From NCBI GenBank assembly GCA_963855995.1, contig OY979717.1:1981179-2045178 (forward strand): a stretch of 64,000 bases of DNA, read 5' to 3'. The translations under genes were made by a program, and so were the position numbers. Shown here piece by piece: positions 12,473-55,090 of this stretch. The stretch comes from Muricea muricata (taxonomy: Eukaryota; Cnidaria; Anthozoa; Malacalcyonacea; Plexauridae). Positions within the stretch are counted from its first letter, which is position 1. Each line of letters begins with the position of its first letter. Under the pieces are notes generated by a model. The model had not been told where the DNA came from. It saw only the letters and a list, made by a program, of their open reading frames with translations, and ran no database searches.

Positions 12473-12669
12473 TGTATTAGAGTAGAAATATATATGACGG
12501 AAAATAAGCTTGGTTTTATCCTTTACTGATGAAATAACAAGACTAACGATACAATGGTTTGATATAAACTATATTAGATTGTTTAGTTCGAAGAGCACAT
12601 GCAAAAGAGGTTGGACACGCATGCGTCAACTGATCTCAATATGTGTATGTTTAGTTTGTTTCTTCGACA
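12473..12669 (-). repeat. BEL/Pao 3' LTR
   Basis: This 197-bp long terminal repeat is nearly identical to 18383-18579 (one substitution). The pol stop codon (12583-12585) lies inside it. A short purine-rich GGAGGA immediately precedes it in the element's orientation, at the expected polypurine-tract place. Confidence 0.93.
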
Positions 12670-15600
12670 TCCTCCGGGGCGGCGTAAGGTTTTCGTCCAT
12701 TCCGAAATTCTGCTGGTTGCTCTTGTTGCTGCTGCTCTTTTGGGTTTTTCTCTGGTCGATTCTTCCTTCCCCCCAGAACGATCTACATCGGGTTGTTCTT
12801 GACGATCGCTTGTTTCCTTCGACGTGCTTTCGCTTGCTGATAATTCTAAAGGATAAAGCTTACAAATTGGTCTGTTCGTGTGTCCCGTACTTGTTCGAAT
12901 CTTAGCTGCACGAATAAGATCATCTCCTCCTTTGATCAGATCCTCAACTACTGCTAATCTCCAACTGGATCGGGGACCATCATCATGAACTAGGACTACG
13001 TCCCCCCTTTTGATGGTTTGCTTGTTGTCTCCGCTAGAACGATGGTATTCGCGTAATGACGTTAGGTATTCGTGTCGCCATCTTCTCCAAAACCTTTGCA
13101 AGATAACAGCTTGTAATTTCACTCGACGTTGAACATCTGATTCAGTTCCATAATCGGGGTCGGCCAACTCCTCAGGCGAGATTGGAGTATCAAATGGTAA
13201 TGAGGTAATTCTTCTTCCGTACAGTAAGTGGGATGGAGTTAACGGTTCTGCGTCGTTGATATCACTCGGTACAAATGTAATCGGGCGATCATTCAGGATA
13301 GCTTCAACTTCAACAATTAGAGTTTGGAGTTCTTCTAGTGTCACTAATGTCCGACCGAGCGTTTTCCTTATGACTGTTTTCGTCAAACCAATGAGACGTT
13401 CCCAAAAGCCCCCGTACCAAGGGGCTCGCTTGGGTATAAATTTCCACTCAACTCCTTGTCTACTGAAGGTTTCCTTTAGCGATAAGGATTCGAACAATCT
13501 CTTGAGAGTTTCTGCTGAGGCAAGGTAGGTGGAAGCATTGTCAGAGATCATGAGGTAGGGTAGAGACTTACGACTAGAGAATCGACGAAATGCAAGAAGG
13601 AATTTCTTCTCTGAAAGGTTGGATACAATTTCCAAATGGATGGCTCTCGTAACTGCACATGTGAAAAGACAAATGTACGTTTTCTCTTCTCCGGAATGGG
13701 TTCTGACAAAAAGTGGTCCTGCAAAGTCCACTCCCGTCACTGTGAATGGTTTCGTTTCTTTGACTCTTATTGTTGGTAAAGGTGCAGGGTCTGGGACCTT
13801 AAAGGATGTACCGATAACTCTGCGACAGGTGACACAACGTCTAAGCAACTTCTTTACGAACTGCCTTATTGCGATTATCCAGTAACTTTGTCGAACTGCT
13901 GTTATGGTTGCGTTGATACCTGAATGCAACTGTTTGTGATGAGCATCTAAGACGATCAGTTCCGCAAGCCTACAGTTTGGTGGAATTATGTACGGAAATC
14001 TGGTCAGTTCACTTAGTGGGGCGTTATGAATCCGGCCGCCGCAACGAAGATATCCTTCGGTGTCTAGGTATAGGCGAAGTTGTCTTACCAATGGTAAACG
14101 AGTGGATGATGGTGATTTGAGGTTAGCGATTTCTGTGCTGTAATGACGATTTTGACAATTTTTTATCCATACTTTCAAGGCTTCGCGTTTTTCGCTAGGA
14201 GTAATTGGTCCTTCAATTCTTGGTTCGGTTTTGGCAATGTTCTGTAAGAACCGATAAACGTAGGTAGTGACCATTAGAAGTTTTTCTAGTGAACTGTATC
14301 GAGACATATCAATGATCAGGTGTATATCCACGGAATTCGTTTGTTTTTGGTTAGTTCCACTGGAGGCTGTATTCGGTGTTTCTGTCGTGTTTGCCTTCGT
14401 CTCGCTAACTTCAGACTCAAAAACTTCGGTTTCACACAGAGAGAGGTTTATGGTTGACAACGGGTTCCACACAGGCCATTGTGTTTCTTGTAATAACCAG
14501 GTCGGTCCGTTGTTCCAAAGAGAAGACAATTGTAATTGCGAGGTTGTAATTCCACGGGTTAGCAAATCAGCTGGGTTCTGATCTGTTGGGCAGTGGTTCC
14601 ACGTCGACATGGGAAAGAGGCCTTTCATTTCATTTATACGATGCATAACAAATTGCTTCAGCTTTCGATTGCTGTTGATCCAGTATAGAACTATTTCACT
14701 GTCCGACCAAATTTTTGCCTTCAGGTTGGGATATCTGGGACTAAGTGTGTCCAATAGAAATTTAGCTAATCGTGTCCCGATCAGAGCGGCCATAAGCTCT
14801 AACTGAGGAAGGCTTAGTAGCTTTAGAGGTGCGACTCGAGACTTGGCCATGATAGGCGAGGATTGGTTTCCGTTAGTAAGGTAGGCTATACAACCATACG
14901 CTTTTGGACTTGCGTCAACAAATACATGGATGTACGTTGTGGAATTCTGTGCGGGATTTTGGGAGAAGTATTTTCTTTGGAATGTGACATTGGTTGCATC
15001 ACTTAAATCTTTCGCGATGTGTAGCCATTTTGTCTTTAGCTGAAGGGGTAGTGGTTCATCCCATGCCAGCTCTTTCTGCCATAATTCTTGAATTAGTAGT
15101 TTGGCCTTGACAGTCACAGGGGATAAAAGTCCCACAGGATCGTAGATCTTGGAAGAGATTTGTAATACGTGGCGTTTGGTGATAGTTGGTGGTGGTGTGT
15201 ATTCTTTTGCCGGTGTATAACTCAGGGTGTCGGTTGATGGATTCCATTTTAGGCCCAGAATGTTGACAATGGGTTTGGAGTCAGCTGTTCCGTCTTTTGC
15301 AGCAACCTCTTGTAGCGATGGACTATTTGATGCCCACGATTGTAGATGGAAGTTTGCATTCTGCATAATAGATCGAGCTTCATTGTAGTATTGAACAGTG
15401 TCCGTTTCGTTCTCACAGCCAGAGATAACGTTGTCAACGTAGATGTTCTTGATGTCGTGGGCTACGGCCTGATCGTAATTTTGTAGGTGACATCGAAGAG
15501 TGGCGTTCAGCAAAAAGGGGGAGCTAGTGGAGCCAAAGAGGACGGTCTTGAAGCGGAATGTATTTAAGACACTTTCAGGATTCATCGGGTCTGAGAGCCA

Positions 15601-16854
15601 AAGGAATCTGGTAAAATCTCGGTCATTATCGTCAAGACCAACGTGGAGAAAGGCCTTTTCGATATCTGCTGACAGGCCATAGGGGAAGGTCCGGAATCGT
15701 AGAAGGATCGTACACATGTCGTTGAGGAAAGGTGGACCAGTAAGTAAACAGTCGTTCAGACTAGGAGAATTGGGTGATGAGTGGAAGCTACAGTCAAAGA
15801 CAATTCGAACTAGCGTTGTAGATGATTCCTTGTGAACAGGGTGATGTGGGATGTAGTGAACTTTAGTGGTTGTCGTTGTTTCTTCAACCTTTTCAATGAA
15901 CCCTCGTTTTATTTGCTCTTGTATAATGTTTCCATAACTTTTAAGAAGATCTGGAGCAGATGAAAGTCGACGTACCATTGCGCGAGTCCGACGTTCACAA
16001 GCTTTGTAGTTGTCTGGAAGTGGAGGTGCATTATCTTTCCAGGGAAATTTCGTTGTGTAGCTGCCATCTGGGTTTCGGGTAATGGAGGTGGTGATGTAAT
16101 CTTCTAGAAAATCATGTTGTTTATCAGTGTTTGATGGTGGAGTGGTCCCCAAGGACTCGAGGGACCAGAAACGTTCTAGATCGAATTCGGTGTCTTTGGT
16201 GGATGTTACCGTTTGCAGGAAATTAACAAGGGTGCTAGAGGATGAGGAACATGGCAATGGTCCTGAGAGAAGGTATCCTAGCTTTGATGCAACTGCTGTC
16301 GGGCCTTGACCGCGAATTACTTGATCTTCCACTATGTCCCAATAGTGGTCAGCTCCAATTAGTAAAGATATATTGAAATTCTCTTCATCAGTCGTAGGGT
16401 GGGCAAGGGTTAAATTTCGTAGGTGAGGGATTTCATTCATTTGTGTACGATGTGGAATTTGAAGAGGAGTAGCTATTTTATCGATGATGAGAACATGTAA
16501 GGGAATTCGTTCCCCAGTACGGGTGACAAGGTAAACTGTAGCAAGTGGGAGATGGCGTTTGGCAGCAGTTTGGGCCCCAAAGGCTGATAGGGAAATTTCT
16601 TCTGTTTGAGTGAGCTGGATACCAAGTTGGTTGGCAAGACTGGTCGTGATAAAGGATCGTTGGGCACCTTCATCCAGGAGGATGCTTGCATCGCAAAACA
16701 ACTGTCCAGAACTTACAGTTGCAACAGCTGTCTTTAAAAGAGATACATGCCTGACAGTTGGGGAATGGATTGAAGGAACAAGAGTGGCATGAGTAGATCT
16801 CGGTTGTTGTGTATTAGGTTTAACTGGTAGTCGTCTTGCTGAATAGGTGGGTTA
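12583..16854 (-). CDS. pol: BEL/Pao Pol polyprotein (protease, RT, RNase H, integrase)
   Basis: The frame is open from a stop at about 16,854 and has no upstream ATG suited to independent start. Residues below count from the TTG at 16,701 (1,372 aa from there). Protease: LLDEGAQRSF at about 9-18. RT: the NPDGSYTTKFPW lead-in, catalytic D346 in SADIEKAF, and YVDN at 421-424 where most RTs have YVDD. RNase H: FVDAS near 594-598. Integrase: zinc residues H921/H926/C956/C959 and DDE triad D992, D1054, E1101. Pol is in the -1 frame relative to gag and overlaps it by about 120 nt, so it is probably made by -1 frameshifting. No internal stop. The final residues are encoded inside the LTR. Confidence 0.93.
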
Positions 16855-18362
16855 AGGGGTTGATGAGGGGTGAGATGTGCAGTGGGATGTGCAGGGAGAG
16901 TGGGTGGTGGAGGTGACTCGAAATTGGGACATAGGGTGGTATGGTGTTTGCCTCTACACTTTAGGCAGCGGAATCTTGATTGGAAATTGGCAGATTTATG
17001 ATTTCCAAGACAATTAAAACAGAGTTTGTCCTTCTTTGCAATAGCCCATCGTTCTTGACAATCGTTTACAACACTGCAGTTTCGAGTAGGATGTGGGCCC
17101 TTGCAATATGTACATTGTTTGCTTGTGTGTCCCACGGTCTCCCTTGGGCTATAGTCACGTTGTTTCCTATGGGTTTGTGTAAAAAATGAGCCAGCTGTTG
17201 TGTATGCAGGAAATGAGGGTGTTCTTTGTATGGGAGATGTGTGAATACCAGCTTCTAAAATTCTTATTTCTTTTAAGATTGACTCTCTAAGTTGTTGAAA
17301 CTTCCACTCGGGACTGTTGTGATCACGGGCTAGATTTGTTCTTATTTGTTGAGGTAATTTCCCAAGGACAATTGGAACCAAGAGGTCCCCATAACTACTA
17401 TGGGATCTTCCAAGTGATTCTAACCCCCTAATATGACTTTCCATAGTGTCATAGAATAGTTGTAAACTTCCTAGTTCATATTTAGGGTTGGGTAAATCCA
17501 GGAGAGATTGCATGTGTGCATTTATTACTTTGCTGGCATTCCCAAATCGTTCTTTTAGGAGTTGAACAGCTTTGGTATAATTATCATTAGTGAGGGGAAA
17601 CCCAGAGATAGCTCTTGCTGCATCCCCTGTTAGTTGAGCTTTGAGGTAACTAAACTTTTGTATATCACCAAGGGTTGTATTAGAGTGCACAGCTGCCTGG
17701 AATGAATCCCAGAATGTAAACCATTGTAAGGGGTTGCCCGAGAATGTTGGTAGATTTAATTTTGGCAAACGACTATTTTGATTGAAAGAACTGGGGTAAT
17801 GAGGGGTAGTTGCAGGTAATGTTGGTGGATCTTCTGGGGTGTTTACTTGATGTTCTTGTTGCGGTTGTTCTACTACAGGGGGTTGACTGACTTCTTCTGA
17901 CTGTGTGTTTCCAAGTGGGGTATTATTTTGTTGAGCAACTTCAGTGGTTGGGTTTGCATTTGTTGTAGTGTTCAATGGAGTTTGTATATTTGTACTTTGT
18001 GAGATAGCTTGGATAAATTCATGGGAAGGGTTGACTTGGGATAACTCAGTTGATACAAAATTATTAATACTTTGACTTATCTGAGCTGCTGCTTCTTCGA
18101 TCTGTTCCAGAATGTCCTCCGTCTCGAATATTTCTTTCTCAATTTCCTTTGGTTCTTCGATAGCGGCTGCAATTTTTTGGTCTAGTTCTTGAAGAATTGT
18201 TTTCTTTGTTGCTAATTGCTCCTTGATTAGGTTTAGGGATGCGATATCACTGTCCGTTAAAGATTCCTTTTGGATGATGCTCGATGCCTTCTTGAATGTT
18301 TGTGTTAGATGAGCTCGATAACCAGCTCGTGATGCTACGAATTTTGCAAGATTTTCCGCCAT
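16734..18362 (-). CDS. gag: BEL/Pao Gag protein
   Basis: A 542-aa capsid-nucleocapsid precursor. The ATG at 18362 directly follows the primer-binding site. Residues 1-100 are helical and charged, and 130-195 a Gln/Pro/Thr-rich linker. Residues 200-370 match the DUF1759 Gag domain of BEL/Pao (LPTFSGNPLQWFTFWDSF, LKAQLTGDAARAI). Three CCHC-like knuckles follow at 417-429, 448-460 and 466-478. The middle one has Phe460 in place of the final Cys, which should weaken zinc binding. The stop is at 16,734-16,736, within the overlap with pol. Confidence 0.92.
   Translation of the reverse strand: MAENLAKFVASRAGYRAHLTQTFKKASSIIQKESLTDSDIASLNLIKEQLATKKTILQELDQKIAAAIEEPKEIEKEIFETEDILEQIEEAAAQISQSINNFVSTELSQVNPSHEFIQAISQSTNIQTPLNTTTNANPTTEVAQQNNTPLGNTQSEEVSQPPVVEQPQQEHQVNTPEDPPTLPATTPHYPSSFNQNSRLPKLNLPTFSGNPLQWFTFWDSFQAAVHSNTTLGDIQKFSYLKAQLTGDAARAISGFPLTNDNYTKAVQLLKERFGNASKVINAHMQSLLDLPNPKYELGSLQLFYDTMESHIRGLESLGRSHSSYGDLLVPIVLGKLPQQIRTNLARDHNSPEWKFQQLRESILKEIRILEAGIHTSPIQRTPSFPAYTTAGSFFTQTHRKQRDYSPRETVGHTSKQCTYCKGPHPTRNCSVVNDCQERWAIAKKDKLCFNCLGNHKSANFQSRFRCLKCRGKHHTTLCPNFESPPPPTLPAHPTAHLTPHQPLNPPIQQDDYQLNLIHNNRDLLMPLLFLQSIPQLSGMYLF
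16818..16824 (-). promoter_or_regulatory. Candidate -1 frameshift heptamer GTTAAAC in the gag-pol overlap
   Basis: On the minus strand the heptamer reads G TTA AAC in the gag frame, inside the roughly 120-nt overlap between the pol-frame stop at about 16,854 and the gag stop. A -1 slip there enters the pol frame upstream of the protease. GUUAAAC is a known functional slippery sequence (arterivirus ORF1a/1b), but a downstream pseudoknot was not checked. Confidence 0.45.
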
Positions 18363-18380
18363 ATCCTGGTCACGGCACCA
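18363..18380 (-). other. Primer-binding site complementary to tRNA-His
   Basis: The plus strand reads ATCCTGGTCACGGCACCA, matching the 3' end of animal tRNA-His including CCA. It starts two bases inside the 5' LTR and runs straight into the gag ATG. Confidence 0.85.
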
Positions 18381-18382
18381 AG

Positions 18383-18579
18383 TGTATTAGAGTAGAAATA
18401 TATATGACGGAAAATAAGCTTGGTTTTATCCTTTACTGATGAAATAACAAGACTAACGATACAATGGTTTGATATATACTATATTAGATTGTTTAGTTCG
18501 AAGAGCACATGCAAAAGAGGTTGGACACGCATGCGTCAACTGATCTCAATATGTGTATGTTTAGTTTGTTTCTTCGACA
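18383..18579 (-). repeat. BEL/Pao 5' LTR
   Basis: This 197-bp LTR should carry the element's promoter and polyadenylation signals. It is followed by the TSD AGTGC (18580-18584) and differs from the 3' LTR at one base. Confidence 0.93.
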
Positions 18580-28748: not shown

Positions 28749-31700
28749 TCAGTGCTCATCATCCATCTCATCAATAACTTTAAAACCTTCGTCTAGGATT
28801 TCAAGATATTTGTACGACTGGTATTCATTTTTTATTTTTTTGTAAAGAAAGTATACAGGAAAGCGTTTTTCATAATTACCGTTTCCAAGATCTTTCCAAC
28901 CCATTCGTTCTGCAATAAAGTGATTGGTTCTGCGATTGTGTTTTGGCAAACTAGTAAACCATCTCTGAAGTTCCCACATAAAAACAGGGCAGAAACAGTC
29001 TTTCGCATATTGCTCCACCCACATTCTAAATTCTATGTCACTGATACATAAACAGAAGGAAATTTCATTTGCTTTACACTGTCGAATCTTTCGTAACGCA
29101 GCCTTAGCAGGATCGAGATACTCGTCGTGTGTTTCTTTGACTGGAGGACAGTATGACTTGGGTCTAAGACCCTTGCTTTCGGGAAGAAGATCATAAAATC
29201 CAGGACAGCTTGTTACGTCATAGTTTGGGTGTCTTGGAAGCGATTTGTAAGCGAGTACGTTTGTTTCTGCGGACGTTGAATGATATAAATAATTATACAC
29301 CATGTGAAACTCTGCTTCACGATCCGGATACTGCAACATATGCTTAGCATATTCATTATCTTGACGAGAATTTTGGTCTGAAATATGACTCTCTCCTTTC
29401 AATGCATGAACACCGTCATAAAACTGAGCTAAATATCTTGGGGTGATCCAATGTTTGTTAGTGCAGTTCAATGGCAAACTTGGTGCAATTTCATGAGCTT
29501 TTTTGTACACGCGAGTTAACATGTCAACTCCCATAAGTGCAGCAATATGTAATGGCGACATTCCTTCAAATGTCGAATCACACTGGAAACTAGACTGATA
29601 TGGTTTTGTTCTCATTAAAAATTTTTTCAATAACTTTTTGAAAGTGCGACGTTGATAGTGAGGCATTCCTAATTGGGCTGATGCGGGTTGACTGTCCAAA
29701 TTTAACAACATTTGATTCACGTGGTAAATAAAGTCTTCATTGTAAGATGCATTTGCAATTTTCCAAACGCTTTCACCATTGCAATTTTTATCAAGAACGC
29801 TAGCATTCCAGTTGTTGATTAAATATTTAGCCATATGCCATAATCCGTACTTCGCACAGAGATGAAGAGCCTTATCCCCACATGGACAGGACGTCTTCTC
29901 ACGGTAAAAGGTGTACAAAAATTTTTTGGCGTAAAAGTATCGAAGACCACTTGACTGGAGAACACCTAAGCTTGGTGATACATTCTCACCACATTTTTCC
30001 TCCACATTAGCACCGTTTTTTAACAACATCTCTGCTATTTCAGTGTCATTTCTTTCTACAGCATCCATCAGAGCAGTCTTTCCTGAATGATGCTTACAAT
30101 CCAATGATGATTTTCCAAACTGCAACAAAAGCTTTATAATGTCAATGTTACGTTTGGAAACTGCAACATGTAAAACAGTTTCACAAAACATATTATGAAG
30201 ATCATAGAATGATCTATTTGCATGAGACATATTCATTTGTTTGCACGGCAAACATTCGTCTTTTACTTCAGCAGATTCTAAAAGATACTTCACAACGTGG
30301 GAATGGTTTCTTGCGGAAGCATGATGTAGGGAGATGACGTCTGCCTTATCACCGTTCTCGTGCAACAACTTAACAAGATCTAAATGACCTCTTTCTGCTG
30401 CCACGTGCAGTAATCTCGGCACATACTCATCGAAGTGCATAAACGAGGCGTTATGTTTCAACAAAGTATGAACCATTTCTACATGACCATTATAAGTTGC
30501 AATGTGCATTGTGCTTAATTCTTCATACCCCTTCATTTGTATAACGGACTTAAATTCACCCAATGTAGACAAGTCAATAAGAATGCAATTTGCGCAGGTA
30601 TTTTTATCAAGAAATGGTTTTATGTTTTCAACAAATCCAGCTGAGGCAGCGAAGAAAGCTGGTGTTTTCCCTTCGAAGTCAGGAGTATCTACTGAGGAAA
30701 TGTTGGAAAGAAAAACCTCCAACAATGACGTAGCATTCTCTCGTTGAACTAGCTCATGTAGAATGCTCTTCGCATTTTGTCGATTGAGAATTTTGGAAAC
30801 GTTTATACGGTTTAGGTGTTCCTTTTGATAATTCCTTGGTCCACCAGAGTTTAATACGTGTATACACAACCGAAATAGTTCACTGAAAGTAATATTACTA
30901 TCTCTTTGCAGACGGTGAAGAAGAAAATTACTAATGTATTCATGACCTCGCTTCTTCTGGACTGAAAACCCTTTTACACGGTTGCTCTTACTCACTAACC
31001 ATTCAGCAAAAGATTGATGATAAATGCTCACTGTTTCATCTTCCCCAAAATGTAGTAAAGGAGCGACTTGTTCAACAAGATCGCCCATTACTTTATCCTG
31101 ATTTTCACGTTCGAGAATTCCAAAAAAGTCAATTTTTTGTAAAGAACCACTTGCCAGGAGAATTTCAAAAATAATTTCATAGCTACCAAAATCTTTTTTT
31201 ACAAAATATCGTTTAAACAGTTGATAGTACATATCATCCAAACTATTCGGAAATGAATTAAAATCAATTGTACCAGTATTTCCTTCTAGGTTGCTCTTCA
31301 GAATGGTTTTCACAAACAAAAAATTTCCTTCTGCAAGTTCTGTTAATTGTTTGGTCATCTTGTTTATTGAATCCTCTAATGGAGAGATTGCTTTGTACAG
31401 CTTACTAATGAAAGAATATTTTCGTCTCAAATAACTTGAAATGTAAAAACGAATGTCTTCAGTGTTTCGGTCATCGCTGGAATTTATAGTTAATCTTTGT
31501 ACCGTTCGAGGCACTTTTGAAGTCACTGTTGTTCCGTTCTGAGAACTCATAATAACTTTCAACCAGTGAGGAAAATAGCGTAATTTGTAGTGAAGTATGT
31601 CTAATATCGCGGATGTTTCTCCGTCCTTCTCGACACATTCATCTAAAGCGTCGATCACAATATATTTAAATTCAACCGGTTTATTTTTCAATTCTCTCAG

Positions 31701-34116
31701 AGGTCCCACAACTGCCGTAAAGAAACATGCTGTTGGATCGTGTTGACAGTGTTTATTCAACGCTTTTTGTATGTGAACTTTATTACCCACATGATCAGAA
31801 TACTCGCGGATGTTACTCGCAATTTGATCCACCAAATTACGCACAAACCGTGCACCATTCCATTTCTCGTTTTCTGAATAATCGCACACGTGATAGCCAA
31901 CTATGTTGTCGTAAATTGTCCAACTGGAAAACGGTGAACAAATCAATTGCGATAAGAGCGCCGACTTTCCAGATCCCGGGTCTCCGGTGATCAGAACTCC
32001 TACAGGGGCATCAACACTTTGAAAGATGTCACCCAGTTCTCTGAAGAACCAATTTCTGCCGGAAAAATGCTCACGTTTGTAAGACAAAGTAGGTAGGAAG
32101 TCGAATTCACTGAAGCCAAGTGCTGACGTTTGAACAGGACGTAAGCAAGCTAAAATTAAAGAAAAAATGGTCGTCAAAACACTAAAAGGAGGGGGGGGGA
32201 TCGAGGGTAAAATATGGGAACGTAACTATCAGGGGCAAACTAGAAACCGTATGCGCACTCATTAACGACGTGTGAATAAGTCGTTTTTCTAATTATTTAA
32301 CAAACTGTTTTGACCCGTGAATATATTTAAAACATAATTTTGGATTGTTTGAAATAATGAGAACAGTTAAAAACTAAGGCACTGTTCATACTCTCTAAAT
32401 CCCCACCCCCCTCGCAGACCATCACAATTTTTTTTTTATAAATTTTGTAATATCAGGATGATATACGCATGGGGTATTTTAATAAAATGGGTGTCTTTCA
32501 ACAGTCTGGTGAAGACAAGTCTGCAAGTTGGTTGTCAAAACTTGTTATCCACAGGCTAATTGTTACTAGTAGTTGCAAAAGTTGTAATCAAATGTAACAA
32601 GTATAAGAAGTTTGGAAACAATTCGGTAAAATTTAGGGCTTACAGTACTGCTGATGTCAGCATTGCTGTATTTCAGCCAGGTAAAGTTTGCAAACATTTG
32701 CCTTATACGTTTATTGTTAAACATATTGTCGCTTTTGCTCAATGGAGTGGCTTTCAATTCTCTTAAAACTCCTCGTCATCCGCCCTTACCAAAATCAGTT
32801 ACTGGTGACGGATGATTTTGCAAAGCCATAGCTCTGGTTCAGTATACGCTATTTCTACAACAAAAACACCACTTTACCCGGCATTGAAATCTTTTTCAAC
32901 CTAGCCTGTCGCTAAAAAGTTTCCTATGCATAAAATTTGATTATTTCCCCCAATTCAAAAGCAGAAAACTTTGCAATGTTAAAGTTAATAAGGATGCAAG
33001 AATATTTCTGAAATATAAATCGCTATATCTCGAGAAGATGCATATGCTTTTGAAAATACCACTATATAAATAATGAACGTTTTGAACACTTCAACGACTT
33101 GGTTGAACGTTAACTATGTAAATAATAACTTTACTGCCATAATTGGCCTTACCATCATCAGACACCAACAGGGAATTATCATTCACGCACGATAACAATA
33201 ACATAACCACGATTAAAAAAGAAAACAACTTGCAGCAAGCGAATTCTTTTAAAACTCTGACAAGATACGTGAGTAAAATGTTGCAAAAACGAACAAAGTC
33301 TTCTTTGAACGACTCATCAGAAGTGTAGCCTGGACCCTGGGTATTTTCACGTGATGTTAAGATTAATTGAATCATGTTCATCAGCTCGTCTCGCTTTTCT
33401 TCTAAGTTTCTCTCCCGATCAAACTCCCGTTGCCGCGTTAGTTCTTGCAAAACTTCTAAATCTCTGTCTTGTATAATTGAAACATCGGCGTTTCTTACTT
33501 CGCTTATTCCTGGGCGACAATCTTGGACCTCTTTACAAGACAACAATTCAACATCATTCATCAGGCTGTCAACAGCTCTACGCGCGTCTTGCTTTAGGGA
33601 TTCATTAAACTTATAATTAAGTGTATGTGCCCAATCATTTCTTAAATTTCGGACGGACTTAAGCAAGTTCTGATTAACTTTGGAATGTTTGTAAAATATT
33701 AGGAAGTTTAAAAGTCCCGTTAGATCTGTTGTAGCTGGATCCTTTACATCGCACCATTTTGCACCCAAGTCATGCATGAAAACCTTTGCGACTTCCCAAT
33801 AACCATTGGTACGGTCATGCCAGAGAGTACTGTCACTTTGGTAAAATGGAATGTGACTTTTTTTCTTATTCACATGTAATTTCTCTAATGCTCTGCTCAA
33901 CTTACACGAATGACGACAAGGTTTTGTTCCAGGCGTAACCGTACAATTACAGTATCCTCCATATTTTCTTAAAATAGAGTCTTGCAGTTCTCTGGCTTTC
34001 TGCTCAGCATAATGACGTAAGCCTTCAGCTAGGATTTTTATTTCCTCACCAACTGCAATGTAGTTAAGGTATTCTGGGTCACTTCGCAGCTTCTTTAGTT
34101 CTTGAACAGATCCCAT
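28749..34116 (-). CDS. HEPN-transmembrane-NACHT-ankyrin repeat protein, two exons
   Basis: Exon 1 is 34116-33153 and exon 2 is 32149-28749. Donor ATG|GTAAGG and acceptor TTTTAG|CTTGC match in phase 1, giving 1,454 aa. Residues 1-200 are a HEPN-like helical domain: a Cys cluster at 56-71 (CNC..C..C) and R159-N-D-W-A-H164, the Rx4H RNase signature. Residues 220-250 are charged and helical, and about 296-311 hydrophobic, a possible membrane helix. NACHT: Walker A GDPGSGKS at 377-384, Walker B YIVIDALDE at 484-492, HQSFAEWL in the helical arm near 699. Degenerate ankyrin repeats span about 810-1270 (LLHVAAERGHLDLVKLL, TALMDAVERNDTEIAEMLL), then an unrecognised C-terminus of about 180 aa. NACHT and ankyrin parts resemble TANC/ANKRD50-type STAND proteins. 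I infer an intracellular sensor with a possible RNA-cleaving effector. No stops; looks intact. Confidence 0.82.
32150..33152 (-). other. Single intron of the HEPN-NACHT-ankyrin gene
   Basis: About 1 kb, with GT (33152-33151) and AG (32151-32150) ends. It separates the HEPN/TM exon from the NACHT exon. No nested gene was seen; a run of G occurs near 32,190 and of T near 32,435. Confidence 0.7.
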
Positions 34117-34150
34117 TATTTGGCGTGAGATTTACCCTGTGATATAAATA

Positions 34151-37688: not shown

Positions 37689-37979
37689 CAGTGACTTTCG
37701 CTTGACAAACGACATTGGTTGCTAGGCAATGGTTGCATGGCAATCTGCTTTCTTTCTACAATTGCATCCATCATTATTCGCTTTCTCTTCCCGTAATATT
37801 TTCTTGCTGTTTCGGTGGCCCATAGGTGTCACGGCAACATTTGGCAACATCGACGCGGCAATTTCAATAATTAATATTAAACGACAACACGCGGCAACAT
37901 ATGCATTGGGTCTTCACGACCACTTCAAAAATTCACGGCAACATTTAGAATCTCACGGCGACTTTAAAAATCCATGACA

Positions 37980-38130
37980 ACTTTTAGTAAAATGTCACGG
38001 CAACAATTAAACAAGAATCTCACGGCAACAATTAAACAAGAAACTCACGGCAATAATTGAACAAGAAACTCACGGCAACAATTAAATAAGAAACTCACGG
38101 CAACAATTAAACAAGAATCTCACGGCAACA
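37980..38130. repeat. Tandem CACGGCAACAATTAAACAAG subrepeats in the left inverted repeat
   Basis: About five or six units of 28-30 bp, varying between AATCT and AAACT ends. The complementary array is at about 40,505-40,640 in the right arm. Confidence 0.85.
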
Positions 38131-38194
38131 ACTGAAGATCACGCGGCGGAAGTAGCCTTGCGGAAGTGACCAAGTACCTCACGCTATATCCAAA

Positions 38195-40156
38195 ATGGCG
38201 GATAAAAGCGACGAACATGGACAACATGTGCTGTAAGTTTTATTATAAATCGTGGTTGCTCAAAAGCAAATGGATGGGGGAGGGGGGTATGATTATCGAC
38301 AACCTTTGATTTTTGGGATTTTTTGTTATTTTAATTCATGGATTGGAATCTTAAAATAAACAAAAAGTTTGCTCACTTTGTGAACGATTAATCAATTGAC
38401 CTGTGTATTGTTTTAAATTTTGATTATGGTTGGCCAGTTCATTTAAATAATTTGAATAACAAAGCAAATACAGCCAGAACTGAGTAAACTTAGACATTCA
38501 CCATCTATGTATAGAGACATACTCTATGTGACATTCTCTATGTCTTAATTAAAATTGCATTTGTGTCATATAGATGTTAGGGGCACGTCACTTTAACACA
38601 CTGGGGCAGAACAGTATAGGTTTTAAAAGGTTCTTATTTCCCCCTGCATTCTCATTCATTCCCTGCAAGGACCATGTCCCAACCAATAGTTGGGACATGG
38701 TCCTTGCAGGGAATGAAATAGTTGGCTAACCAATAGCCAACTTGTGCTACCACCACAGCCCGATGGCCTAGAGGAGGACCTCGTACGGCACATGTGTTCA
38801 ATGGCCGATATGGCGTCCATAAATACCAACTCGCAGACCTTTCTCATTCACCTCAACCTTGCGAGGCAGTGTCATCACATCGCTTTCCTCAGGCGCTGTC
38901 ACGTTTCTAGGTTGATATATTCCTCATAAAATCAATTTCAATTGTTTCACAGTCTGATGACCAATTTCGCTTCTAGGTGGATTGCAGAACAACTGCAACA
39001 GCACAGAGGAAACGAGGAGTGGAAAAGTCGTTTCGGCACCTGCTTGGCGAATGATGTTCTCCTGCTGTGGAATGTCTTTCGTATGCCGTGTCCACAACTG
39101 CTCAGTATCGGCTACCACTCCGCGTGCCGCCGTCCGGGTGGGCTGAAGGATGTTATTCATGCCTGCGAAGACCTCATCGACGCTGACCAGCCTCTTCCAA
39201 ACTCCATTCTCATGGCCCAGCAGGAAATGCACAAGTAAAGTACTTAATTAATGTAAAGAAATTCAATTAATATTTCTCGCTATATATAAATATATTTAAA
39301 CATATTATATAAATTATAAACCATTATATATTATATACTAGGTACAGGTTGCGCCTGGAAACGTCTTTCCCTGAGGATCGGATTGGAGACGGGGATGGTT
39401 TTAGCGGTGTCCACGTCCATCGTGTTCTTCAATGGTTCGAAGATGAGGATGCGATTGTCGATGATGCAACACTGTCTGCTTTGCTCTGAAAAAATGTTGA
39501 GGCAAAGCTTGACAGGCGAGACGATCTAGTCGGGACGAGGCATCGATGTAGAATCGTTGGATATGACACCCAGGAGGTAGGTTACGTAACATTAGTATTA
39601 TTAATGTATTAACAGTTGATTCATTAACGATTGTTTTTCCTGTCGCAGGTCTGTGCTGAGGCTGCATGTCATCAACATTTCTCAGAGCAAGGCAGACAGT
39701 GGCTGGAAGCGAGGTTCCATCGTCTTCGTGGCCCACCAGCAGAAGCTGACCCATCTCTTTTGCTTGACATATTCGACGTCGATCAGTATGGTCGTCTGCT
39801 GGTTGACGTACGCGGCGTTCGTGTCGAGCAAACCACCACAATGCTGCAGCGCTGGACGTTAGCAGAAGAATGTGTTCGGGTGGGATGGGCTCACTCCACG
39901 CCTTGGCATATCATCCCTGCCGTCGTTCGAGAGGCACTGCAGTTTGCCATTACCAACAGGGCAGGCGCGTGGGGCCTTCAAACGGACGAATGGCGCTTTC
40001 AAGGTACGTACATGCGATTTGTACACATTAAGTACATCGCTTTCGTCAGTGATTTTTCTCCTACCCATTCTAGCACCATTTCTCTGTCGAAGACTGCACA
40101 GAGAACAGCTTCATCGGGATGGCAGAAGGCGTGAGTTTCGGATGCCACACCATTAA
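38195..40156 (+). CDS. Staphylococcal-nuclease-like protein encoded inside the TIR element (one nonsense codon)
   Basis: Proposed exons are 38195-38232, 38722-38910, 38977-39234, 39342-39576, 39649-40003 and 40074-40156. All have GT/AG borders and consistent phases; the sum is 386 codons including the stop. The C-terminal half has the layout of a thermonuclease (SNase) fold: GDGDGFSG matches the DGDT metal loop; CRIVGYDTQE aligns with the RxxxxDTxE catalytic strand (equivalents of R35, D40, E43); DQYGRLLV holds the second catalytic Arg (R87); ECVRVGWAH and AGAWG match the conserved end. The N-terminal 170 residues are unrecognised. An in-frame TGA near 39,487 lies between DGD and RIVGYD; it could be a CGA-to-TGA transition, making this copy a recent pseudogene. 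The first two exons are the least certain; exon 1 lies within the left inverted repeat. Confidence 0.6.
38655..38717. repeat. Perfect 29-bp-stem hairpin just upstream of exon 2
   Basis: The arms CATTCCCTGCAAGGACCATG.. (left, 38655-38683) and its exact complement (38689-38717) are separated by five bases. A second 9-bp stem (AGTTGGCTA/TAGCCAACT) follows directly. The hairpin overlaps the branch and acceptor region of intron 1 of the nuclease-like gene. Confidence 0.85.
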
Positions 40157-40879
40157 CACTATCAAAATCAAGTAAGAAACTCTATTATATGACAAAATGT
40201 ACTTTGTATCTGCATTCACAGTTTCTATAATGTAATCGACTTTCAATATACTTTCCAATTACTGGCAGTAGACGCATGTAACATTTATTTTAAGATTCCA
40301 ATCAGTGCATTTAAATAACAAAAATCCCAAAAATCAAAGGTTGTCGATAATCATAGCCCACCCCCCTCCCCCATCCATTTGCTTTTGAGCAACCACGATT
40401 TATAATAAAAATTACAGCACATGTTGTCCATGTCCGTCGCTTTTATCCGCCATTTTGGATATGCCGTGAGATACTTGGTCACTTCCGCAAGGCTACTTCC
40501 GCCGTGTGATCTTCAGTTGTTGTCGTGAGATTCTTGTTTAATTGTTGCCGTGAGTTTCTTGTTTAATTATTGCCGTGAGTTTCTTGTTTAATTGTTGCCG
40601 TGAGATTCTTGTTTAATTGTTGTCGTGACATTTTACTAAAAGTTGTCGTGGATTTTTAAAGTCGCCGGGAGATTCTAAATGTTGCCGTGAACTTTTGAAG
40701 TGGCCGTGAAGACCCAATGCATATGTTGCCGCGTGCTGCGTTTAATATTAAAATTGTCGTGTCGATGTTGCCAAATGTTGCCGTGACACCTTTGGGCCAC
40801 CGTAATTTAATATAAAAATCCACCCATACAAAATGAGGTGTCAAAATTGAAAGTCAAGCTTCGAAATAATTTGAAAGTC

Positions 40880-41732: not shown

Positions 41733-42760
41733 CTAAGAATCTAATGTCAACACAGTACTTGCAAAATTGTTCTTTCCAATTTGCTTATGATAATGTTTTT
41801 CAAACGTGCGAGCAGAAGCCCAATCAGCCGCTTTTAACACTTCCTCAATGGGTAGTCCATGCTCGACAGCGGCTGATGTCGAGGATGACCTTGTAGAGTG
41901 AGCCGTATAGGCGGAGTCGACTCCAGCTAACCCTAAGACTGAACAAATCCATCTAGCAATTGTTTGACTGCCAACTGGTTTGAATGGACGGATATACGAT
42001 AAGAAAAGTTGCTGATACTGTCTGTGGCTTGCAGTACGGAGTGTATAATGTTCAAGACATCGTAAAACACATATAGATGGATTGTTTACGTATCTAGAAA
42101 GATATAGTCGTCGGTTTGGGTGGTTCGGTCTCGAATTTTTAACATATGAAGTTAAAACAAATTCCCAACAGTCAGTCTTCTTGATAACAGAGCCACAATC
42201 CAAGGCTGCGATTTCATGCACCCTGGCGGCCGATGCCAAGGCCACAAGCATCGTTAGTTTGAAAGTTAAGTCCTTGATCGATAATTTCTCTAACGGTTCT
42301 AGCGATGAGAGATACTGCAAAACTGGGCCAACTGACCACGTCGAACAGGTCTTTGGAACAGCAGGTTTTAATTGGAACACGCCTTTCATGAAGCGAGAAA
42401 CAATGGGAAGGTTCCCTAATTGTTGTCCCTCAACAGGATTATGGATTTGGGAAATACATGCCTTGTATACACTTATGGTTCTGTACGCAAGGCCACGCAT
42501 ATTAAATTGTTCTGCTAAAAAATGCCAAGACATCTACGACAGGTGCTGAAAATGGATCCAAGGTCCGTTGCAGACACCAGCTAGACCAGAGCTTCCATGG
42601 TCCTTCATAACGTTTCTGTGTGGTCTGTCGCCATGAGGACTGCAAGATTTTGCACACTTCATCCGAAAGGCCTGTTGCTTGCAGGCGACTCCGGAAAGCG
42701 GCCATACCGCTAGTCTCAACGTTCGCCATAACGGATGGGTCGTCTGAGGGTCGAACGGGA
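41733..42760 (-). pseudogene. DIRS tyrosine recombinase (one frameshift)
   Basis: The C-terminal part, 42533-41733 (266 aa), has catalytic R104 in AARVHE, H212 and R215 in AHSTR, and Y248 in KHYHKQ: the R..HxxR..Y set of tyrosine recombinases. The N-terminal part (CKILQSSWRQTTQKRYEGPW onward) is in another frame, about 42,760-42,515, overlapping the end of the RT-RNase H frame. The two parts are separated by a one-base surplus in a T6 run near 42,517. Catalytic residues are intact, but the protein cannot be made without the missing frame change. A homopolymer sequencing error is possible. Confidence 0.8.
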
Positions 42761-44848
42761 GATAAATTGTCCTCTCTGTCATCGGCAGAAGAGTAGGATA
42801 ATCTATTAACAGTTCCAGTAGCACTGGGTACCAAGGTTGGCCTTTCCATGCTGGAGCTATCAACAATGAGGTTGCCTGATCGTTCCTTATCTTCTGTAAG
42901 ATCCTTGGAAGCAGAACAACAGGAGGATGGATGAATAGGGTCCATTTGTTCCAGTTCTGAAGGAACGCATCCGTCGCAATCGACCCTGGATCGGGGTACC
43001 TGGCTATGTACTTTGGGAGTTGGTTGTTTATCCGCGACGCAAATAGATCCACTTCCGGACGATAATAACGCTGAGTGATATGTTGGAAGATCTTCCTGTC
43101 CAAAGTCCACTCCGTGTGATTGTGGAATTGGCGAGATGCACAGTCTGCGTCGACATTCTCTACTCCTGGAACATGCTTCGCTGTTATCCAGATATTGCGG
43201 CCTAGGCAAAAATTCCATATCTCTGTTGCTAGAGACACAAGTTGCGGAGATCGAGTACCTCCTCTGTCGTTGACGTAACAAACCGCAGTGAAGTTGTCCA
43301 TCAAGAGTAAGATGTGACGGGGCAGTGACTTTATGTCCTTTACAAATGATTGGATGGCTAGATAAGCTGCTTTCAGCTCGAGTACATTGATATTTGCTTT
43401 TTCTTCGTCCATCGCCCATTGACCCCCGGTCTTTCGATCCAGATAAGCTGCCCCCCACCCTTTTTTGGACGAATTCGTCCATATGGTCATGTCGAATGGT
43501 GAGAGAATTAATGACATTTGATTGTGTTGTACAAGTTGAGTTGATGACCACCACTCCAGTTCCTGCAATGCTTGCTTGTTCAGGGCCAGTTGACAATTCT
43601 TGGATGCTTTGAAACAGCCCGTCCTGGTCACACCCGTTATATACTGACGCTGAAGAGCACGGTAATACAATGGGCCTTTCCAGATCCCGATCAATGTGGC
43701 ATGATTCAGTCGCCCCAATAAAGCTGCCAACTGTAAGACTGAGCAATGACGAGCTTTCAAAATGTTCTGGCATTCTGATTGAAGAAGATTGAATTTCTCT
43801 TGTGGAACTGAAACACTCATGTTGGTGGAATTTAGGCAGGCCCCAAGGAACACAACGACTTGGGTTGGGGCTGACGAGCATTTTTCCAGCTTGATCTGGA
43901 AACCCAAGTTCATGAGTAGAGTCATAACTAATTGAAACTGGTGTCGAAGTTCTGCACGATTCTGATGAAGAATTAGAAGATCGTCGAAGTAAATTACCAC
44001 ACAAAGTCCGCTCGAACGGAGTAACGACATCACGGGTTTCAGCAGCTTGGTAAAGGCCCGAGGAGTCCTTCCAACTTGAATTTCTCTTTCCTTATAAATT
44101 GGTTTAACGACTTGAGATTGAATATTGGTCGAGTTTTGGTCGACTGTTTGACCAAAAACACCGTTGACAGGAACTCGTCCTGTACTGGTAGTGTTTCTTT
44201 TATTGCACCTTTTGCGAGCAAATCGTCTATGGCCTCTAGAAACATGTTTCCCTCTTTAAGTTTGGGTTTTGTGATACGCTTTCTCCACTGATGTGGTCTT
44301 AAAATGAAAGGGATTTGATACCCTTGTACTGTTTCTAATATTGTTTTGTCCGAAGTTATTATCTTCCAATTGTCTACAAAATATTTCAATCGACCTGCCA
44401 CCTGGTTGTCTGGAGGATTGATGTGCTTCATTTGAGTCAGGATATAGTCAGCTGCGACTTGGCTCGGTGGAGCCTTTGGAAAATCGTTGAAACTTGGCTG
44501 GTGGCCCTCGGCTTGAAGGATGTTGGACTGTTGTGACAGGGGCTTGCAATGATCCGCGCCTGTCAGACCACTTGCGCTTTCCCATTGACATTGACCAGAA
44601 TTGGCTGGTCGAAAATTGGAACGAAAGGGCTGGTTGGGACGACCTTTGCCATTTTGGGATTTGGGCTGAGAAAAAACTTTAGAATTCGTCTTGGAGTGAT
44701 CGTGTTCACTCTGGACAGCCTCATGAAATTTGTCTGGAAAAAGATGCTGATCAGTAGGAATATCCTCTTTAAGAAGCCGTTTTCCAACATCAGTCAAATA
44801 TTCTGCGAATCTTTTTTTGTCGCCAGGCATTGAGACGGATATTGGCAT
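42534..44848 (-). pseudogene. DIRS reverse transcriptase-RNase H with internal deletion
   Basis: Segment 44848-44039 ends in the RT finger region (TRPIFNLKSLNQFI). Segment 44033-42534 (499 aa) resumes at the palm with VVIYFDDLLIL, then RT thumb and RNase H (TIWTNSSKKGWGAAYL, HILLLMDNFTAVCYVN). At about 44,067-44,072 the finger is joined out of frame to the FTKLLKPV segment. About 70-80 residues are lost, including the first catalytic Asp motif. The deletion makes the RT non-functional. Confidence 0.82.
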
Positions 44849-45512
44849 TTCCTAGTAAGACCAAGGCATCTTCCAAATAGGATTTAATTTCATCTGGGTC
44901 GGGACCATCTGGAACATTTCCGTCATCCTCAACAGTTAAGGGCTCTTCCAAACGCTCCAAGGCAGCAGCAATTGGTCTGGCAACTGCCAAGAATGGGGTT
45001 TGCCTTTCAGCTAAACCTTCGTCGGTGGAGAAAACTTCCTTAGTTTTCTGGAAGCCGAACTTCTGTTTAATATGCTATTTTGCTCCATTCTCCATGGTAG
45101 GAACCACAAGAATGGTATCAGTCCCTTCAATTGGGGGATACTTTTGCATGATGTTAGACCAGACTTCCTTAGAAAGACGCTTGGTAAAGGCTGTCTTTAG
45201 GAAGTTGGTAGTTTCATCTGATAAGGAAACTTGCTTGGTTTCAATATAATATTTACCAAGACGGTCACTGACGGGCAATTCATTAAGCGCATCAGGATTA
45301 TGCAAGTCAGCATTTTGTAATTCGTTAACAGTAGCCTGTTCACGACTTTGTTGACATTCAATAGGCCGTGTCTGAAGGGCCTCTTTAATTAAAGATGGCA
45401 AATTTTGTTGTAGAGTATGGGCTACCTGTTGTGCCACAATTTCATTTAGCTCATCTCTGGTTCTGGTTATGTTTTGTGTGTCAGAGTGGGTACCCTGGAC
45501 AACACTATTCAC
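44790..45512 (-). pseudogene. DIRS Gag-like ORF, stop and frameshift
   Basis: Frame 45512-45075 gives a 145-aa acidic N-terminal part and ends at an in-frame TAG (MENGAK*). The same frame continues in 44990-44790 (VARPIAAALERLEEPLTVED..). A surplus A in an A7 run at about 44,820 then shifts it out of the frame that continues as KKRFAEYLTDVGKRLL into the 44848-44039 segment. Assigned Gag by position and resemblance to the DIRS N-terminal ORF. Confidence 0.65.
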
Positions 45513-47150: not shown

Positions 47151-47328
47151 TGTAGTATCCATCCCTTATTAATATATAACAGGCGCAGTAACATTAAGTT
47201 AATTAGTAACCTCTCAGTAATGTTTACTTTTCACTTTGTAATATTATATACTAAATAAGAAGGTTTTAAAACACCAAGGCGGACTGTTGTTTTACTTTTA
47301 ATCCGTGTCTAAGCACCGATACACTACA
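47151..47328 (+). repeat. Ty3/gypsy 5' LTR
   Basis: 178 bp, TG...CA ends, directly followed by the primer-binding site. Confidence 0.93.
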
Positions 47329-47331
47329 TTC

Positions 47332-47342
47332 TGGCGACGAGG
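47332..47342 (+). other. Primer-binding site (tRNA-Ser)
   Basis: TGGCGACGAGG, three bases inside the LTR, complements the 3' end CCTCGTCGCCA of tRNA-Ser(AGY). Confidence 0.75.
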
Positions 47343-47489
47343 ATCATTCATATGAACAATCTGAAACCGAAGAACTCGAACATCTAACAGTATTTTTACA
47401 ACGCAATCGATAAAAGTTCCAAAACGCGAACGAAGCGATAGTCAGTACACACCTATATTTGTTCTACAAAGCGCTTGAACAAATAATTC

Positions 47490-48530
47490 ATGGCGACTTC
47501 AACTAATTTTTCGTTGCCAAATTTCCCCCCGTTTGATGTTCATGTCGATGGCAACGTTGGTCCGTTTTAACCCGTCTGCGCGAACACAACGCCCGCCTGA
47601 ACCGAGACAAATGTACCTTCCGTAAGTCAGAAGTGATCTTCTATGGACACTCCTTTAGCGCTGAAGGAATCAAAGCTGCCCCTCAGAAAGTCAATGCTAT
47701 TAAGACCATGCAACCTCACAGAAGAAGAAACTGCTTTTCGAAGGCTACAGAATGAGCTTACTAGCGACCGGCTCATGGCATACTTCGACCCAAAGAAACC
47801 TACCGATGTGCTCGTTGATGCAAGCTCCACGGGTCTAGGAGCCATTCTAATACAAGATGGTAAAGTCATCAGCTATGGAAGCCGTGCATTGTCTGATGTC
47901 GAAACTCGGTATTCCCAAACAGAACGAGAAATGCTCGCAGTCGTCTGGGCAACTGAACATTATCATCTTTACCTATATGGTGCCAAGTTCACCGTAATCA
48001 CAAGCCTCTGATTGGTATCTTCAAGAGTCACAAACCCACCTCTCCCAGAATCGATCGATGGAAACTGAGATTAATGCCGTACCACTACGAGATAATTTAC
48101 CGGCCAGGAAAGGACGATGCCAATCCTGCCGACTTCATAAGCCGTCATCCAGATCAAGCCACCCCATTTCCAGATAACATCGCTGAAGAGTATGTCAATT
48201 ATCTTTGCAACAACATAATTCCAAAAGCTATGACCTTATCAGAAGTGAAGAAAGAAACACAGAACGATTCCACACTTCAAAAGCTCTCACAAGCAATTGA
48301 CACCAACCACTGGTCTGATCCAGAAATCCAGTCGTACACAAACGTTAAGGATGAACTTCCCGTTTGCAATGATTTGATCCTCCGAGAAACACGTTTGGTC
48401 CTTCCAAAATCACTTCAACGTCAAGCTATCGAGCTGGGACACACGGGTCATCAGGGAATAGTAAAGACCAAGCGACTGTTACGCGAAAAGGTTTGGTTTC
48501 CTTTGATTGACCGGATGGTCTAAGAGAAAA
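47490..48530 (+). pseudogene. Gypsy gag start fused to RT-RNase H remnant
   Basis: ATG at 47490 encodes MATSTNFSLPNFPPFDVHVD, a typical Gag start. At about 47,563 it joins the RT thumb region (REHNARLNRDKCTF..IFYGHSF), so about 2.5 kb is missing. RNase H follows in a different frame (DVLVDASSTGLGAILIQDGK, YSQTEREMLAVVWA). A small deletion near 48,000 removes the conserved TDH motif and shifts the frame again. Confidence 0.8.
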
Positions 48531-49519
48531 TCAAAAACTGTATTTCATGCCAAGCAGCGACACAAGGTACCATGCCAAAACCAGAGCTCTTAAACATAAC
48601 TCCTTTACCTAAAGCCCCATGGAATGAAATCGCCATTGATTTTGTTGGTCCTTTCCCCTCGGGCGAACCCTTACTCGTGGTAATTGCTGAATTCAGCAGA
48701 TTTCCAGAAGTCGAAATCCTCCACTCCACAACTGCCAACACCGTTATCCCAAAACTCGATGGAATTTTCTCTAGACAAGGAATACCCAAAGTCGTGAAAT
48801 CGGACAATGGTCCCCCCTTCAATAGCAACGAATTTGCAAACTTCGCAAATTTTCTTGGATTCGAGCACCGAAAAGTGACACCTTATTGGCCCCAAGCGAA
48901 CGGCGAGGTCGAGCGCTTCATGCGGATACTCGAAAAAGCAATCCGTACAGCCCATCTGGAACAAAAGAATTGGAAACAAGAAATGAGCGCATTCCTACGC
49001 CAGTATCGTGCAATTCCTCATAGTACCACCGATATGTCACCCTCTGAAGCTCTAAACGGTCGCAAATTACAAACGCTTCTTCCTCAGCACACTGAAGTCA
49101 AGCAATCCGATGTCTACAATTCCATCTACGAAAAAGACAGTGGAAAGAAAAGAAAGATGAAAGAATACGCCGACCAACGACGGCATTCTAAAACCAGTCA
49201 AATAAAAGTAGGAGACATAGTCCTAATCCGGCAACCGAAAACAAACAAGTTGTCCACCCCGTTTAATCCACATCCTTACAAGGTCGTAGCAAGAAAAGAA
49301 AGTATGGTCACCGCTGAACGTGGCTCCCACAAAGTTACACGCAATGCTTCGTTTTTTAAAAAGATCGAAGCAATTTCAATCCCACAAAATGAAACAGACG
49401 ACGAAGTCGACGACCCAATACCGAGTGCCCCACACCAGCAGGAACAAACTGTTGGACTCCAACAGCCCAGAAGATCCCAACGGCAAAGACAACCCCCCAA
49501 CAGATTAGCTTATCAATAG
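48074..49519 (+). pseudogene. Gypsy integrase, one stop codon
   Basis: The frame from 48074 (PYHYEIIYRPGKDDANPADF) contains the zinc-binding HTGHQG..CISCQA segment, broken by TAA at 48,521-48,523 between the His and Cys pairs. It continues with the core AIDFVGP, SDNGPPF and GEVERF (the D, D, E triad) and a C-terminal DIVLIRQPKTNK segment. Apart from the stop, the integrase reads through to the TAG at 49,517-49,519. Confidence 0.85.
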
Positions 49520-49655
49520 ACAAACACATTAGTCAATCTAACTCCTGCAATAACATTACTTTAAATTTGAACTTTATTCAGAGCAATTGGACTCGCATAA
49601 AAAAAAATAAAACAGATAAGTATCTAGAACGTCTGAAGAAGGACGCTATCTTAAT

Positions 49656-49666
49656 GTGGGGAGAGA
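49656..49666 (+). other. Polypurine tract
   Basis: GTGGGGAGAGA abuts the 3' LTR. Confidence 0.85.
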
Positions 49667-49844
49667 TGTAGTATCCACCCCTTATTAATATATAACAGGC
49701 GCAGTAACATTAAGTTAATTAGTAACCTCCCAGTAATGTTTACTTTTCACTTTGTAATATTATGTACTAAATAAGAAGGTTTTAAAACACCAAGGCGGAC
49801 TGTTGTTTTTCTTTTAATCCGTGTCGAAGCACCGATACACTACA
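49667..49844 (+). repeat. Ty3/gypsy 3' LTR
   Basis: 178 bp, five substitutions relative to the 5' LTR, followed by the TSD ATGCT. Confidence 0.93.
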
Positions 49845-53640: not shown

Positions 53641-55090
53641 TAGTTCCATATTTACCAAGGAAAGGTAAATGAATCCAGACTTTGACTGTAATCGGTTCGA
53701 TGTGGGAATTATCAGTAACAGTGTTACAAGGGTTATGAGTTAAAGGTTTGGATAATGTTAATAGTGTTCTTGAAAGTTTGCGGGAGAAGCCATTCCATGA
53801 CATGAAAGAAGTGATATTGTTTAATTCAGTTTTGAGGAGTTCATATCGTTGCTGCAAATTTTGTGGGCACGATGAATGAGGGCACGTATCCAAGAAATCT
53901 TTCTCGACCACGGAGTGTAGCTGGAGTAATGTTGGTATTGACCGGTATGGGTTGGTTTGCGGTAGACAGTGGTACCGTTTTGAAGTATTTGAATGTCTAG
54001 GAAATGTATGTCATTGTCAGGAAATTTGTCAACAGTAAACTGTATTTGACTGTGAAATTTCCTTAAAATGTATTTGACAGTTTACTGTATACAAATTTCC
54101 TGACAATGACATACATTTCCTAGACATTCAAATACTTCAAAACGGTACCACTGTCTACCGCAAACCAACCCATACTGGTCAATACCAGCATTACTCCAGC
54201 TACACTCCGTGGTCGAGAAAGGTTTCTTGGATACGTACCCTCATTCATCGTGCCCACAAAATTTGCAGCAACGATGAACTCCTCAAAACTGAATTAAACA
54301 ATATCACTTCTTTCATGTCATGGAATGGCTTCTCCCGCAAACTTTCAAGAACACTATTAACATTATTCAAACCCTCAACTCATAACCCTTGTAACACTGT
54401 CACTGATAATCCCACATCGAACCGATTACAGTCAAAGTCTGGATTCATTTACCTTTCCTTGGTAAATATGGAACTAAACTAACCAATAGCTTCATTCGAA
54501 AAATAAGTCCATTATTAAAATCTCCTTGTAAATTTATTGTCAACTGGAAAACTACTGATGCTAACTGCTTCATCTCACTTAAAGACCAAACGCCAAAAAT
54601 GTATCAAAGCTCCGTTGTCTATGAATTCAAATGCCCTGGATGTAACGCTAACTACGTAGGAAAAACTGGTCGCTGCTTATACACCCGAATAAAAGAACAT
54701 TCGTATCATGACTCTTCCGAGATATACAACCACATTTGTAGCTGCAACGCATTCAACTTTATAAAGAATCTGCTAGAACTAAGTCCTTATGACGAAGATA
54801 GTAATATAAAATGGTCACTAACAGATTTAATATTTACTAACACTAAAATAATCGACAAATCAAAACACTGGTCTCTAATACTTTTTCAAGAGTCTATTGC
54901 TATAAATAGATTGAAACCGTCACTTAACCATGGAACTAAAGCTTCTAAGGATCTATTAATTTTTAACTAATCATATCTTGTTACTTCACTATATATATAA
55001 TTGTACGTATATGTAATATCATCATCATTCATTTCCTGATCATGACCTAGTTTAGTCGAAACGTCGAAATAAATTTTCAATATGTTATCG
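53641..55090 (+). mobile_element. Penelope-like element fragment with an inverted partial copy
   Basis: The plus-strand part, about 54,070-55,090, carries the RT thumb region (DNDIHFLDIQILQNGTTVY, RKPTHTGQYQHYSS), the GIY-YIG ORF, and a 3' end with GTCGAAACGTCGAAATAAA as in other PLE copies. The 53,641-54,050 segment is the reverse complement of about 54,070-54,476, so the fragment is a roughly 840-bp palindrome at its 5' side. The main RT domain is absent. Inverted 5' partial copies are common in PLEs. Confidence 0.8.
54599..54970 (+). pseudogene. Penelope GIY-YIG endonuclease region
   Basis: The open frame encodes 123 aa: VVYEFKCPGCNANYVGKTGR begins the GIY-YIG fold (VYEF as the first, NYVGKT as the second motif), followed by LYTRIKEH, with Arg in the catalytic helix, and a C-terminal ESIAINRLKPSLN segment. 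A Cys pair (CPGC) fits the zinc-binding insertion of animal PLE endonucleases. The frame is a 5'-truncated remnant: the upstream RT frame has stops at about 54,480-54,530, so no full protein is expected. Confidence 0.82.

Follow-up and report, generated by a model that had tools for sequence, protein, structure and literature searches.

IS3EU transposons are marked by TA..TA termini and usually by 6-bp target duplications (PMC10045372), the fungal families having TAYGG..CCRTA termini (PMC12730594). Captured TET/JBP genes are found in fungal transposons, IS3EU among them, and alpha-kinase genes have also been described (PMC12730594). Two further groups invite comparison, namely the Pack-TYPE elements, described in the source from plants (PMC8903248), and KolobokP/KolobokD, in which His-Me finger or DEDDh nucleases are regular Kolobok genes (PMC9587614). 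Searches of open-licence PMC for a DNA transposon with an SNase turned up no relevant paper.

The window, i.e. the whole analyzed stretch of 64,000 nucleotides from Muricea muricata (C2:1981179-2045178), contains a unit of ~3 kb (37811-40804 including its end dinucleotides) that is very probably a non-autonomous fold-back derivative of the IS3EU/GingerRoot type, with arms that are right-end versions and a centre composed of a captured GNAT-SNase piece and smaller scraps. It is best read as a single event of gene capture by an animal transposon of the IS3EU type, with the architecture of a Pack-type element. Like Pack-TYPE elements, the unit is non-autonomous, has coding fragments of a gene between terminal inverted repeats (TIRs), and has a homologous gene elsewhere; it differs in being an animal IS3EU-type element present as a single copy without target duplication (PMC8903248). 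Its significance lies in the capture, by an animal IS3EU-type transposon, of gene sequence that retains its exons and introns; the passages of the capture papers treat plants (PMC8903248) and fungi (PMC12730594).

Terminal arms and the end family

The unit was bounded by inverted arms of ~0.5 kb at 37811..38652 (left, minus strand) and 40284..40804 (right, plus strand), with homology to the end family extending up to 38652 on the left and from 40284 on the right. End-to-end alignment of 550 against 521 bases gave 494 matches, 22 mismatches, and 39 gap columns, corresponding to 95.7% identity over aligned bases (494/516, the 39 gap columns left out) and bearing out the near-identical 0.5-kb inverted ends of the initial annotation, whose bounds of 37813..40802 ran from CGG to CCG and missed the end dinucleotides. 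Complementary blocks were identified at 95% (38016-38288/40360-40632 and 37885-38111/40512-40738) and 89% (37810-37874/40741-40805), and 25-bp tandem units occurred in the arms (left arm, ~37970-38136). Both arms aligned with the right end of a ~6-kb transposase-bearing copy at C1:35.54 Mb (L010), the left arm being right-end sequence of the IS3EU-type family inverted relative to the right arm. The right terminus was CCGTA and the left TTCGG in place of TACGG; with its left terminus TT, the unit had no target duplication at its flanks, and transposase was absent from this copy.

Queried with the left arm, the 453-Mb genome (74 contigs) yielded 23 matches. Of these, 14 fell at five both-ended places comprising the window, C5:12.73 (L009), C1:35.54 (L010), C1:50.40 (L011 and L012), and C7:6.95 Mb; the remaining nine were pieces of 48-114 bp. 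The initial annotation had proposed looking for copies with the same ends and comparing their insertion sites, and the four additional copies, none with the nuclease, gave a divided answer on the latter. Perfect 6-bp target duplications were present at two of the five places, outside TA..TA in L010 (CTGGAC/TACGG...CCGTA/CTGGAC) and in the C1:50.40 Mb copy (ATAGCG/TACGG...CTGTA/ATAGCG), where CTGTA is one base off CCRTA. The C7 copy had exact TA..TA-type termini at both found ends and flanks with only 4 bp in common. L009 was a 2-kb fold-back of the L010 right-end type with TG..CA ends, no target duplication, and no match to either L010 gene. Insertion into a TA target, suggested by the TA flanks, was rejected on the 6-bp duplications lying outside TA in two copies.

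An integrase-type open frame in L010 (1457-2557, 367 codons) matched PF24764 (E 2.7e-27), with weak IS481 and IS3 matches below the cut-off. Such transposase sequence was found at three of the four other places and was open in L010 alone; the C7 and C1:50.40 Mb copies retained pieces of both L010 genes, with in-frame stops in the transposase matches of both. Transposase relatives were abundant in the genome (at least 116 matches, from the best 111 of 1345 candidates scored). The second L010 gene (3627-5686, minus strand) was in multiple parts with long open frames and is perhaps HECT/G2E3-like, a label to which Pfam and the PDB gave no support, the gene having no Pfam match. The right end of L010 also included an ATG and GTAAGT donor that would start this opposite-strand gene.

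Judged by these sequence features, the end family fits the IS3EU/GingerRoot superfamily, with which it shares long TIRs and an integrase-core transposase; TA..TA termini occur in some of its copies (TACGG..CCGTA in L010) and 6-bp duplications in two (PMC10045372, PMC12730594). The label "unclassified" is not supported, the ends being IS3EU-type. The window copy departs from the superfamily in lacking transposase and target duplication, in that one of its termini is altered, and in that both its arms are of one end type, and its cargo is an SNase gene whereas the fungal cargo consists of TET/JBP and alpha-kinase genes (PMC12730594). As a TIR element with an additional nuclease gene it is reminiscent of KolobokP/KolobokD, from which it is set apart by the SNase fold and by being one broken IS3EU-type copy (PMC9587614), the transposase of the end family being integrase-type and the nuclease SNase-type.

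The initial annotation had offered two alternatives, a captured nuclease, which fits, and a new self-mobile unit. A new self-mobile element that relies on the SNase-fold protein, either as its transposase or as an indispensable partner, is extremely unlikely and largely refuted: the gene does lie neatly between long inverted ends with all ten invariant active-site-region positions kept, but the nuclease was missing from all four other both-ended places (tblastn with eight SNase-family proteins), three of which have integrase-type sequence, the gene body occurs at C1:29.23 and C1:84.12-84.13 Mb without these ends, and the window unit combines no target duplication with one TGA in its gene. A new superfamily with an SNase transposase was likewise rejected on the four places without SNase and the three with integrase sequence, and the window unit cannot be used to argue for a new class of transposon.

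The nuclease gene and its genomic relatives

A fragment of a GNAT-SNase gene, captured with its introns, occupied 38724..40207 (plus strand). The gene model read from sequence alone contains, as initially annotated, six phase-consistent exons and one TGA; its introns are of the GT..AG type, and it encodes 380 residues, not 385. Putative exon 1 (38195..38232, plus strand) comprises a transposon-derived ATG and GTAAGT donor that also occur in the ends of L009, L010, L012, and L013; the left repeat thus supplies this exon and the right one its mirror copy, as had been proposed, the mirror having the donor GTAATT, not GTAAGT. Putative exon 2 (38737..38910, plus strand) begins at an acceptor inside the coding sequence of full-length relatives and the GNAT part is absent from the window gene, which would make the junction between exons 1 and 2 a new one. 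The following plus-strand exons encode the helical region (exon 3, 38977..39234), GDGDG and RxxxxDTQE (exon 4, 39342..39576), DQYGR (exon 5, 39649..40003), and the C-terminal end with the stop codon (exon 6, 40074..40156). An in-frame TGA interrupts exon 4 (39487-39489), where relatives have a sense codon. The GC-rich coding part was confirmed, with 47-56% GC in exons and 14-40% in introns. The window nuclease appears to be a decaying passenger.

The gene is joined to the arms by scraps. A perfect hairpin (38655..38717, no strand; 29-nt arms and a 5-nt loop) at the left junction contains GGACCATGTCCCA, which recurs in the C1:29.23 Mb gene immediately upstream of the part that was captured, and on the right lies a 78-bp piece of a different fold-back repeat family (40207..40284, plus strand) with matches in the genome search. 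These scraps adjoin both arms and gene directly, a point that speaks, without being decisive, against a history without capture. In such a history, two separate IS3EU-type insertions would have come by chance to flank an SNase gene copy that was in place beforehand and already truncated. They would account for the missing target duplication round the whole unit and for the single nuclease-bearing copy known; they would have to produce arms of the same end type that are mirrored and 95.7% alike, like the L009 fold-back (again not decisive), and we regard them as unlikely compared with capture by a fold-back element.

The centre DNA (38653-40283) gave 26 matches in the genome, including the window itself and its hairpin. 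One was continuous (C1:29234625-29236100, 92% identity, covering window 38724-40207). Two truncated copies near C1:84.12-84.13 Mb accounted for five pieces (78-86%), and the other 18 matches were short and confined to the last 77 bases of the query. The short matches belong to another fold-back repeat family, seen as inverted pairs with long arms in the four loci read (L032-L035; C16, C9, C1, and C5). Family ends were absent around C1:29.23 Mb (27 kb) and C1:84.12-84.13 Mb (20 kb).

Against the C1:29.23 Mb locus, exons 2-6 matched at 160/174, 237/258, 217/235, 333/355, and 79/83 bases and the introns at 282/315; over 368 codons (two gapped), dN was 0.061 and dS 0.098, a ratio of 0.62. A GNAT-like exon was retained upstream at this locus, but the part compared is interrupted by two in-frame stops, one splice donor is damaged, and an arginine of the active site has been lost. 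As the locus is itself broken, it is a sister of the window fragment and not a proven donor.

Outside the window, GNAT-SNase matches were identified at ten places (19 matches from 21 scored candidates), and at seven of the ten one or more matches were interrupted by a stop. At C1:124.17 Mb, the GNAT-type exon and neighbouring exons were open, openness not being established for one nuclease stretch. These numbers, together with related clusters of up to 115 member sequences and the captured TET/JBP genes of fungal IS3EU and other transposons (PMC12730594), could suggest that anthozoan mobile DNA habitually carries GNAT-SNase, picking it up repeatedly, with the window as one case. This is highly unlikely, given that no GNAT-SNase place lay within 10 kb of a transposase match, among the matches listed, and that long inverted repeats do not flank the C1:29.23 or C1:124.17 Mb copies.

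The wider nuclease family

The nuclease belongs to a wide, little described family that is mostly missed by Pfam and has a helical N-terminal region and, in some anthozoan members, a GNAT-like part. The initial annotation rightly recognized a thermonuclease layout, as the DGD, RxxxxDTxE, and DQYGR motifs are present in the window gene and invariant across the family. Ten of 11 active-site-region positions were identical in 38/38 sequences, window included, and the eleventh in 36/38; we take these positions to be equivalent to those of staphylococcal nuclease numbering. The SNase fold was found in the model of a relative, P0018, not of the window product itself, and fold and residues together sustain the description of the product as SNase-like. 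A first structure model from five sequences had a pLDDT of 38.4 and was replaced by one from 28 sequences. The profile alignment suggested earlier was largely negative: the window product had no match to the curated Pfam SNase model, to which 2/28 relatives matched at E <= 1, the better of them at 2e-4. Searched against PDB sequences, the window product and A2 gave no SNase match and only apparent chance matches. From the SNase domains of staphylococcal nuclease and SND1, the family is distinguished by lying mostly under Pfam detection, by the helical N-terminal region and, in some anthozoan members, by the GNAT-like part. The N-terminal part, which is GNAT-like by motif, gave one weak acetyltransferase match (E 0.47) and no Pfam support.

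Named gene relatives were found in the octocoral Paramuricea clavata and, as a fragment, in the coral Oculina patagonica. No relative was confirmed in viral_contigs or genome_contigs, and none was found in phages (query P0001) or PHROGs (four proteins); a viral or prokaryotic home for the nuclease was rejected on these searches. The annotated O. patagonica protein P0086 joins a piece resembling, by eye, a reverse-transcriptase end to an SNase-family fragment and is probably a gene-prediction chimera over mobile DNA. This wide SNase-fold family is the more interesting by-product of the analysis. On a bolder reading, which is very unlikely, the GNAT-SNase genes form an animal nuclease family that keeps its active site complete, has been amplified repeatedly, and is spread along with mobile DNA. 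IS3EU-type elements would take its nuclease half under their own promoter since an enzyme that cuts or degrades DNA would benefit the element or hinder its competitors; were this trade real, the window would hold one trace of it, already in decay.

Possible route of capture and neighboring elements

Template switching during repair is a possible route of such capture. The template switching passages of the consulted sources concern LTR retrotransposons. In the window unit, the hairpin, patchwork centre, and abrupt junctions suggest that the gene piece may have been acquired by replicative template switching during repair. A chimeric transcript would start in the transposon exon 1 and splice to a cryptic acceptor within what used to be the GNAT exon. 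Earlier movement, if any, would have depended on the transposase of relatives, not on the nuclease, and mobilization of the unit in trans after capture is possible; as to movement with cargo, no duplication was found in the window and no cargo in the four other copies.

Several further elements were identified in the window. A Bel/Pao-type LTR retrotransposon (12473-18579, minus strand) encodes a Pao peptidase, reverse transcriptase, and DUF5641 and is delimited by 197-bp direct repeats that are 99% alike (12473-12669 and 18383-18579). At 28749-34131 (minus strand) lies a STAND/NACHT-type ATPase with ankyrin repeats, adjoining a DUF4559 protein that matched HEPN weakly. A tyrosine-recombinase open frame (Phage_integrase) beside frames that by eye are reverse-transcriptase-like (41733-44851, minus strand) is perhaps a DIRS/Ngaro-like element, and inverted repeats lie around it (41267-41359/41504-41596 and 40926-41064/46797-46935). 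Reverse transcriptase/integrase-like frames, Gypsy-like by eye, occur on the plus strand at 47151-49844 between direct repeats 97% alike (47151-47328 and 49667-49844). Finally, a near-perfect inverted repeat (53705-54413, 96-97%) with a 33-nt centre duplicates a reverse-transcriptase-like frame.
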